Assembly (NCBI RefSeq): GCF_041468085.1
Contig: NZ_CP121017.1
Location: 4,029,501 to 4,093,500 of the forward strand
Reading direction: 5' to 3'
Length of the DNA: 64,000 bases
DNA from: Tistrella mobilis
GTDB taxonomy: Bacteria > Pseudomonadota > Alphaproteobacteria > Tistrellales > Tistrellaceae
The notes under the pieces were generated by a model. It saw only the letters and a list, made by a program, of their open reading frames with translations, was not told the origin of the DNA and ran no database searches. This document shows, piece by piece, positions 1,364 through 1,710 of this stretch. The first letter of the stretch is position 1. Each line of letters begins with the position of its first letter. Both the position numbers and the translations under genes were made by a program.

Positions 1364-1480
1364 TCAGCGATCGGGGCGCATCAGCACGGCGGCAAGCCAG
1401 GCAGCCAGCGCCGCCACGGCCAGGCCGCCCAGGATCAGCCCGATCAGATCGACCAGCCCCGGTTCAGGCAGGGGGGTCAT
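1364..1480 (-). CDS. kdpF: KdpF, small stabilising subunit of the Kdp ATPase
   Basis: A 38-residue protein with one hydrophobic segment (about residues 9-34) ending in AAVLMRPDR. The ending matches the typical KdpF tail, a hydrophobic run followed by L-x-R-P-[ED]-R. In other bacteria KdpF is a single-pass peptide that stabilises KdpA/B/C in the membrane. It sits directly before kdpA, as expected. Its ATG overlaps the stop of the preceding 27-codon frame (ATGA), which suggests translational coupling. At 39 codons it is easily missed by gene callers. The assignment rests on length, hydrophobicity, tail motif and position. Confidence 0.85.
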
Positions 1481-1560
1481 AGCCGTGCGATCCCGACGGC
1501 CGCGAGAGCTGCCAGGCCGAACAGCCCGGATCCCAGCGCCAGCATCAGAAGGTCCATCAT
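1477..1560 (-). CDS. 27-residue hydrophobic peptide upstream of kdpF
   Basis: A 27-codon frame opens with two ATGs (1560 and 1557) and encodes a single hydrophobic segment, MMDLLMLALGSGLFGLAALA followed by AVGIARL. It ends in TGA overlapping the kdpF ATG. The overlap, the clean membrane-segment composition and its position as first frame of the kdp operon suggest a real small membrane protein rather than chance. I recall similar very short membrane peptides ahead of kdpF in other Proteobacteria but cannot check this here. Function unknown; it could be an extra small Kdp subunit or a translational leader for kdpF. Confidence 0.55.
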   Translation of the reverse strand: MMDLLMLALGSGLFGLAALAAVGIARL

Positions 1561-1710
1561 GGCTCCGGTCCTTGATGTGCGGAGCGACCATCACAGGACG
1601 CTCCCGTCAGGATGGAGTGTCGGCCCGACGGCCGTAAAATCGCGATGGCGATCCTGGTCGGACTGCATAAACGGGGCGTAAAAATTCCCTGGAAGGCCCG
1701 CCGGCGGGGG

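Follow-up and report, generated by a model that had tools for sequence, protein, structure and literature searches.

A conserved small membrane peptide encoded ahead of kdpF, a candidate accessory component of the Kdp potassium pump

The window, the whole 64,000-nucleotide stretch of Tistrella mobilis DNA analysed here, opens with part of a kdp operon on the minus strand, in which we located the following features:

1477 to 1560, minus strand: gene of a conserved single-span membrane peptide, 27 codons (or 26, from the second ATG at 1557), assigned from sequence, homologs and dN/dS
1563 to 1566, minus strand: GGAG, likely ribosome-binding site of the peptide, assigned from sequence and from the SD-like motif common to family starts
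1477 to 1480, minus strand: ATGA overlap of the peptide stop with the kdpF start, a putative site of translational coupling
1364 to 1480, minus strand: kdpF, 38 residues, C-terminus ...MRPDR, from its match to PF09604
1 to 1334, minus strand: kdpA, starting at 1334, 566 residues overall and running past the window, from PF03814, TIGR00680 and genome neighbourhood
1667 to 1682, minus strand: predicted KdpE-like box TTTACG-CCCCG-TTTAT, 122 nt upstream of the peptide ATG, from a pattern based on E. coli half-sites

The peptide frame is hydrophobic, reads ATG ATG GAC ... CTA TGA from 1560 to 1477, and its TGA overlaps the ATG at 1480 with which the KdpF frame begins; this arrangement, with kdpF preceding kdpA, is the one that the first-pass annotation had described. 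The GGAG lies 2 bases from the first ATG and 5 bases from the second, and since the second is the better spaced of the two, the product may have 26 residues. The KdpF of the window scored 20.7 bits against Pfam PF09604, slightly below the gathering score of 21.2, so automatic calling may miss kdpF as well; it is without the usual final aromatic residue. The part of kdpA inside the window scored 578.9 bits with PF03814 and 529.5 bits with TIGR00680. Beyond kdpA, the same strand carries long frames that we named kdpB, kdpC, kdpD and kdpE from their order and resemblance, and a KdpD profile match is present among the frames after kdpA in the host genome. Directly upstream of the operon, at 1711 to 2352 on the minus strand, is a frame of 213 residues whose N-terminus resembles that of a lipoprotein (ACSSS).

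We collected kdpA loci from the 80 nearest KdpA matches, from a sample of Alphaproteobacteria (n = 289 genomes) and one of Pseudomonadota (n = 299), from phylum samples around Thermomicrobiales, Planctomycetaceae and Nitrospirae-titled genomes, and from plasmid records picked by hand. Three loci without usable upstream sequence (L098, L254, L335) and six with weak partial KdpA-like matches only (L301-L306) were dropped before counting. The latter six are Planctomycetota frames of ~500-700 residues that match PF03814 only weakly and in part (at about positions 310-509), and probably represent other K+ transporter relatives and not KdpA. The 331 loci retained are not independent of one another, as they include close strains, hand-chosen plasmids and seven second copies (L247-L253: two from plasmids, one each from Chloroflexota, Planctomycetota and Nitrospirae, and both Verrucomicrobia rows). 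The peptide profile was seeded with 36 hand-picked peptides, iterated on the regions upstream of kdpA and applied with a threshold of 12 bits.

The iterated profile found the peptide at or above the threshold upstream of kdpA in 251 of the 331 loci, distributed over eight phyla, with control maxima of 9.1 bits for antisense and 7.4 bits for codon-shuffled sequence. The loci counted here are those on which the final profile had been iterated; as a hold-out we used the un-iterated seed profile on the non-seed loci, where it recovered the peptide in 162 of 288 (controls at most 5.2 and 7.9), including 36 of the 66 held-out loci from the three samples outside Pseudomonadota. By sample, the peptide was present in 63 of the 80 nearest-KdpA loci, 42 of 56 alphaproteobacterial loci, 65 of 100 further Pseudomonadota loci, 29 of 30 in Chloroflexota (taken from the best 30 of 38 genomes above the cut-off), 7 of 10 in Planctomycetota, 25 of 29 in the Nitrospirae-titled phylum, 18 of 23 plasmid picks and one of two Verrucomicrobia rows, the window itself being counted as one. 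Positive plasmid picks include Streptomyces, Nonomuraea, Arthrobacter, Rhodococcus, Deinococcus and one Bacillus; Verrucomicrobiota and Bacillota contribute a single positive locus each to the eight phyla. The first-pass annotation had proposed conservation at the amino-acid level in relatives as one point on which the peptide would stand or fall, and that conservation extends far beyond the Alphaproteobacteria, tied to kdpF-kdpA.

The remaining 80 loci fell below the threshold, seven of them being probable diverged members as judged by eye. They are chiefly of the Pseudomonas and enterobacterial types and include the plasmid picks from Lactiplantibacillus, Parabacteroides, Synechococcus, Halobacterium and Tsukamurella. 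E. coli K-12 has no such peptide before kdpF: the best profile score there was 1.0 bits, compared to 26.6 bits for its KdpF. The profile likewise did not find the peptide in the sampled Pseudomonas loci. Since many Kdp loci are without it, the peptide is not generally essential. We placed 322 rows, 244 of them positive, on a KdpA tree, leaving out the seven second copies, the fragment L100 and one short row. The Pseudomonas-type and enterobacterial-type loci make up two entirely negative clades on it, of 29 and 12 rows, and presence of the peptide changed at least 23 times, or 18 times if the seven diverged candidates picked by eye are scored as present. In one genome (G006, contig C8, 559000-564299) two kdpA genes (L092 and L099) lie on opposite strands at a distance of ~2 kb. 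Both are accompanied by a peptide-like frame, the second of these frames being diverged (7.1-7.5 bits).

The 27-codon frame is a real protein-coding gene. Across 41 independent homolog pairs its dN/dS was 0.27 (bootstrap 0.22-0.32); the first, second and third codon positions differed 117, 70 and 227 times, respectively. When the pairs were read in the two alternative frames, 30 and 11 of 41 ran into a stop, and the remainder gave dN/dS values of 0.98 and 2.08. The start codon is ATG in 232 of 250 family members and an SD-like motif precedes 213 of 246 starts, compared to 24.6 expected from the same window placed 30-90 nt further upstream. The commonest lengths are 26-27 residues, kdpF begins a median of 10 nt after the peptide, and the ATGA overlap seen in the window recurs in a minority of loci (41 of 250, or 39 of 244 once second copies are set aside). 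The level of translation is inferred.

Alignment of the 250 peptides outlined a set of hallmark residues, namely D3 (92%), F14 (84%), Y20 (54%), C24 (58%), D/E25 (68%), R26 (70%) and L27 (68%), of which the window peptide retains D3, F14, R26 and L27 but not Y20, C24 or D/E25. The family is predicted to have a single hydrophobic span in one orientation. K or R is absent from residues 1-5 of all 250 peptides and occurs in the C-terminal part of 237, which under the positive-inside rule would place the C-terminus in the cytoplasm. Conservation showed no significant helical periodicity along the peptide (p = 0.067).

Next, we searched 289 whole alphaproteobacterial genomes with a 55-row profile, which includes peptides from some of those genomes, and obtained 43 matches at E <= 0.05. 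Thirty-nine of them lie on the same strand and at most 600 nt upstream of a kdpA, the other four having E values of 0.001-0.033; the contig fragment G021:C195 was absent from the kdpA list used for this count. By genome, matches occurred in 38 of 51 with kdpA compared to 3 of 238 without it. In the genomes searched, linkage to kdp is therefore nearly exclusive. KdpF was found in 320 of the 331 loci and in 250 of the 251 peptide loci, so that the distribution of the peptide is nested within that of KdpF. Among the 250 loci with both, no natural in-frame fusion of the peptide to KdpF was found.

The family did not correspond to any known one that we searched. At E <= 10 Pfam returned no family for the window peptide, and no PDB chain matched the family profile; a search of solved structures gave two matches with E values of 1 and 3.3. 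When 55 members were compared with NCBIfam and Pfam, the best weak matches reached E = 0.019 and 0.023, respectively, and fell in assorted unrelated families, of which photosystem II protein T came up most often (4 of the 55); PF09604 was not among the three Pfam families matched by any member at E <= 0.1. That the peptide might be the KdpF of the operon itself is rejected by the separate KdpF present in 250 of 251 peptide loci. We also rejected the idea of a KdpF paralog, as profile-profile comparison showed no relation between the two (hhalign probability 4.3-4.5% in local mode, over one aligned column, and 0.9% in global mode).

The first-pass annotation had further expected standard annotation to miss the gene, and this was borne out for the plasmid records examined. 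A tblastn search with a Rhizobium peptide matched 164 plasmid records; among the 60 matches listed, 8 fell in unannotated records, 51 had no feature at the match and one was a 'hypothetical protein', in a plasmid gene table that is itself incomplete. A 'hypothetical protein' covers the place of the peptide in two records, one of them already among those 60 matches. With a Mycetohabitans peptide as query, 8 of 9 Mycetohabitans rows bore the name 'potassium ABC transporter ATPase'. The RefSeq protein WP_191287747.1 (Mycetohabitans, L084 1248-1352) has this name, the same position and the same family membership (34.5 bits against the iterated profile), but its 34 residues are too few for an ATPase domain and its record gives no function, so the name looks like a misnomer. 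A literature search on that name returned nothing beyond an integron paper. In the open-access literature searched we recognised no paper describing the peptide, and prior mention is possible in subscription papers and supplements, which lie outside that search. The portion available of a Caulobacter paper reports an unannotated kdpF and names no second peptide, and the main text of a small-proteome paper on S. meliloti, as available, does not contain 'kdp'.

We file the peptide as a new family within a known kind, the small single-span proteins encoded with a membrane complex, with which it shares amino-acid selection, a predicted span of fixed orientation and gene linkage. The closest comparison is KdpF (PF09604, about 29 residues), which is also tiny and single-span and is encoded in the same operon by the adjacent gene. 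Their motifs differ, M-x-D...F14...Y...C-[DE]-R-L in the peptide and ...YL..AL.RPE[RK]F in KdpF, even though the two genes lie side by side. KdpF is described, in the text available of two papers, as a stabilising subunit of the Kdp complex (PMC9062700, PMC5401905). CydX, the small subunit of cytochrome bd, is likewise a small single-span protein whose gene accompanies those of a large membrane complex and is difficult to annotate; it belongs to another complex and is treated in the available text as an established subunit (PMC4325964), whereas the peptide is a candidate subunit.

As to function, our leading reading, which we consider somewhat better than an even bet, is that the peptide acts as an accessory subunit or as an assembly or stabilising factor of the Kdp K+ pump, because of its linkage, its apparent co-regulation, its nesting within KdpF and the selection on its amino acids. 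It would be made together with KdpF and KdpA, in the window by way of the ATGA overlap, and would work beside KdpF to stabilise the pump or help to assemble it. Physical membership in the Kdp complex would fit the evidence. Counting against this reading are the many kdp loci that do without the peptide, the lack of any natural fusion to KdpF, the non-significant helical periodicity and the loss, on independent pairs, of the links between peptide absence and KdpF residues.

The peptide could instead modulate the pump by binding the P-type ATPase KdpB and tuning its turnover or degradation. Other P-type ATPases are known targets of single-span peptides, such as MgtR/MgtS and sarcolipin/phospholamban, and the candidate has a single span in common with them, binding to KdpB being only a possibility. 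Its nearly constant position beside kdp in the genomes searched and its dispensability in several lineages would suit such a role, but it travels with kdpF-kdpA and not with kdpB, and we regard a modulator as unlikely.

A regulator of the sensor kinase KdpD, providing a feedback signal made by the operon itself, seems a little less likely again. Sensor kinases can be targets of small peptides, MgrB being an example, and in the alphaproteobacterial and Chloroflexota samples we found no peptide in a genome clearly without KdpD, which was matched in all 51 alphaproteobacterial genomes with kdpA and in 37 of the 38 Chloroflexota genomes with kdpA over the cut-off. KdpD is nevertheless present in genomes with a peptide-less kdp locus (e.g., G016, G028, G036 and G277) and in E. 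coli, so KdpD does not need the peptide. Presence of the peptide does not track KdpD, which accompanies kdpA with or without it, and co-occurrence consequently neither requires nor excludes a KdpD role. A dependence of peptide loss on KdpF residues (P26, E27, D5, L11) was also rejected: it was strong by Fisher test but confounded by descent, and on independent pairs, few of which were informative, the median p was 1 among the columns listed. In peptide-lacking Pseudomonas- and enterobacteria-type loci, the conserved acid near the C-terminus of KdpF is frequently preceded by A and not by P, an association confounded by descent.

A leader or upstream open reading frame, inert as a peptide, whose translation controls kdpF-kdpA by coupling or attenuation, would account for the ATGA overlap in 41 of 250 loci and for a position behind a KdpE-like box. 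The E. coli KdpE half-sites are given in the available text as TTTATA and TTTACA with a 5-bp spacer (PMC3264566), from which we built the pattern TTTWYR-N5-TTYWY, with expectations from mononucleotide shuffles. The pattern preceded the peptide in 55 of 246 loci compared to 1.4 expected, at a median distance of 102 nt (122 nt in the window), and between the peptide start and kdpA in 2 loci, a stretch of mean length 215 nt compared to 384 nt upstream; under this strict pattern most loci have no box. Where a box is present, the peptide seems to head the genes that follow it, and may be under KdpE control. In 11 loci of three lineages, however, kdpB lies upstream on the same strand (kdpB-peptide-kdpF-kdpA): two from Deinococcus, one from an alphaproteobacterium (L235) and eight from the Nitrospirae-titled sample (all rows: L326-L329, L331-L334, L089, L260 and L235). 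In Deinococcus ficus the peptide sits between kdpB and kdpF, and the distance from the aligned KdpB end to the peptide is 14-90 nt in ten of the 11 loci and 455 nt in D. radiodurans. A promoter region upstream of kdpB has been studied in D. radiodurans, according to the available text of PMC5716572. Being internal to the operon in three lineages, the peptide goes with kdpF-kdpA and is more than a 5' leader. Purifying selection on its amino acids, a motif kept across phyla and a median gap to kdpF of 10 nt, by which coupling would often not run through an overlap, also speak against an inert leader. We disfavour the pure leader or attenuator and rank it just below the KdpD regulator.

Finally, a chance open frame, conceivable for only 27 codons in high-GC DNA rich in spurious frames (100 ORFs of at least 20 residues in 8 kb), is rejected by the conservation, dN/dS and linkage and is next to impossible.

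Most of what is known about Kdp, a textbook ion pump, comes from E. coli, which is without this gene, and to our knowledge the solved KdpFABC structures are also from that species. Under the accessory-subunit or assembly-factor reading, a further small partner of the pump is probable, one that studies of E. coli could not have revealed. We give about even chances to the broader proposal that the ancestral bacterial Kdp pump included a fifth membrane subunit, which survives at most loci in most of the sampled phyla but has disappeared from the enterobacterial and Pseudomonas lineages. If true, the solved structures would represent a pump that has been reduced, and the helix absent from them would affect how the pump is assembled or coupled in many other bacteria. 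The gene lies ahead of kdpF in many lineages, has no family model and is often left out of annotation, so operon definitions, knockouts, heterologous expression and structural models made without the peptide may miss a component for many bacteria. Being short, the gene is open to direct testing, and a family profile could let annotators name the peptide.
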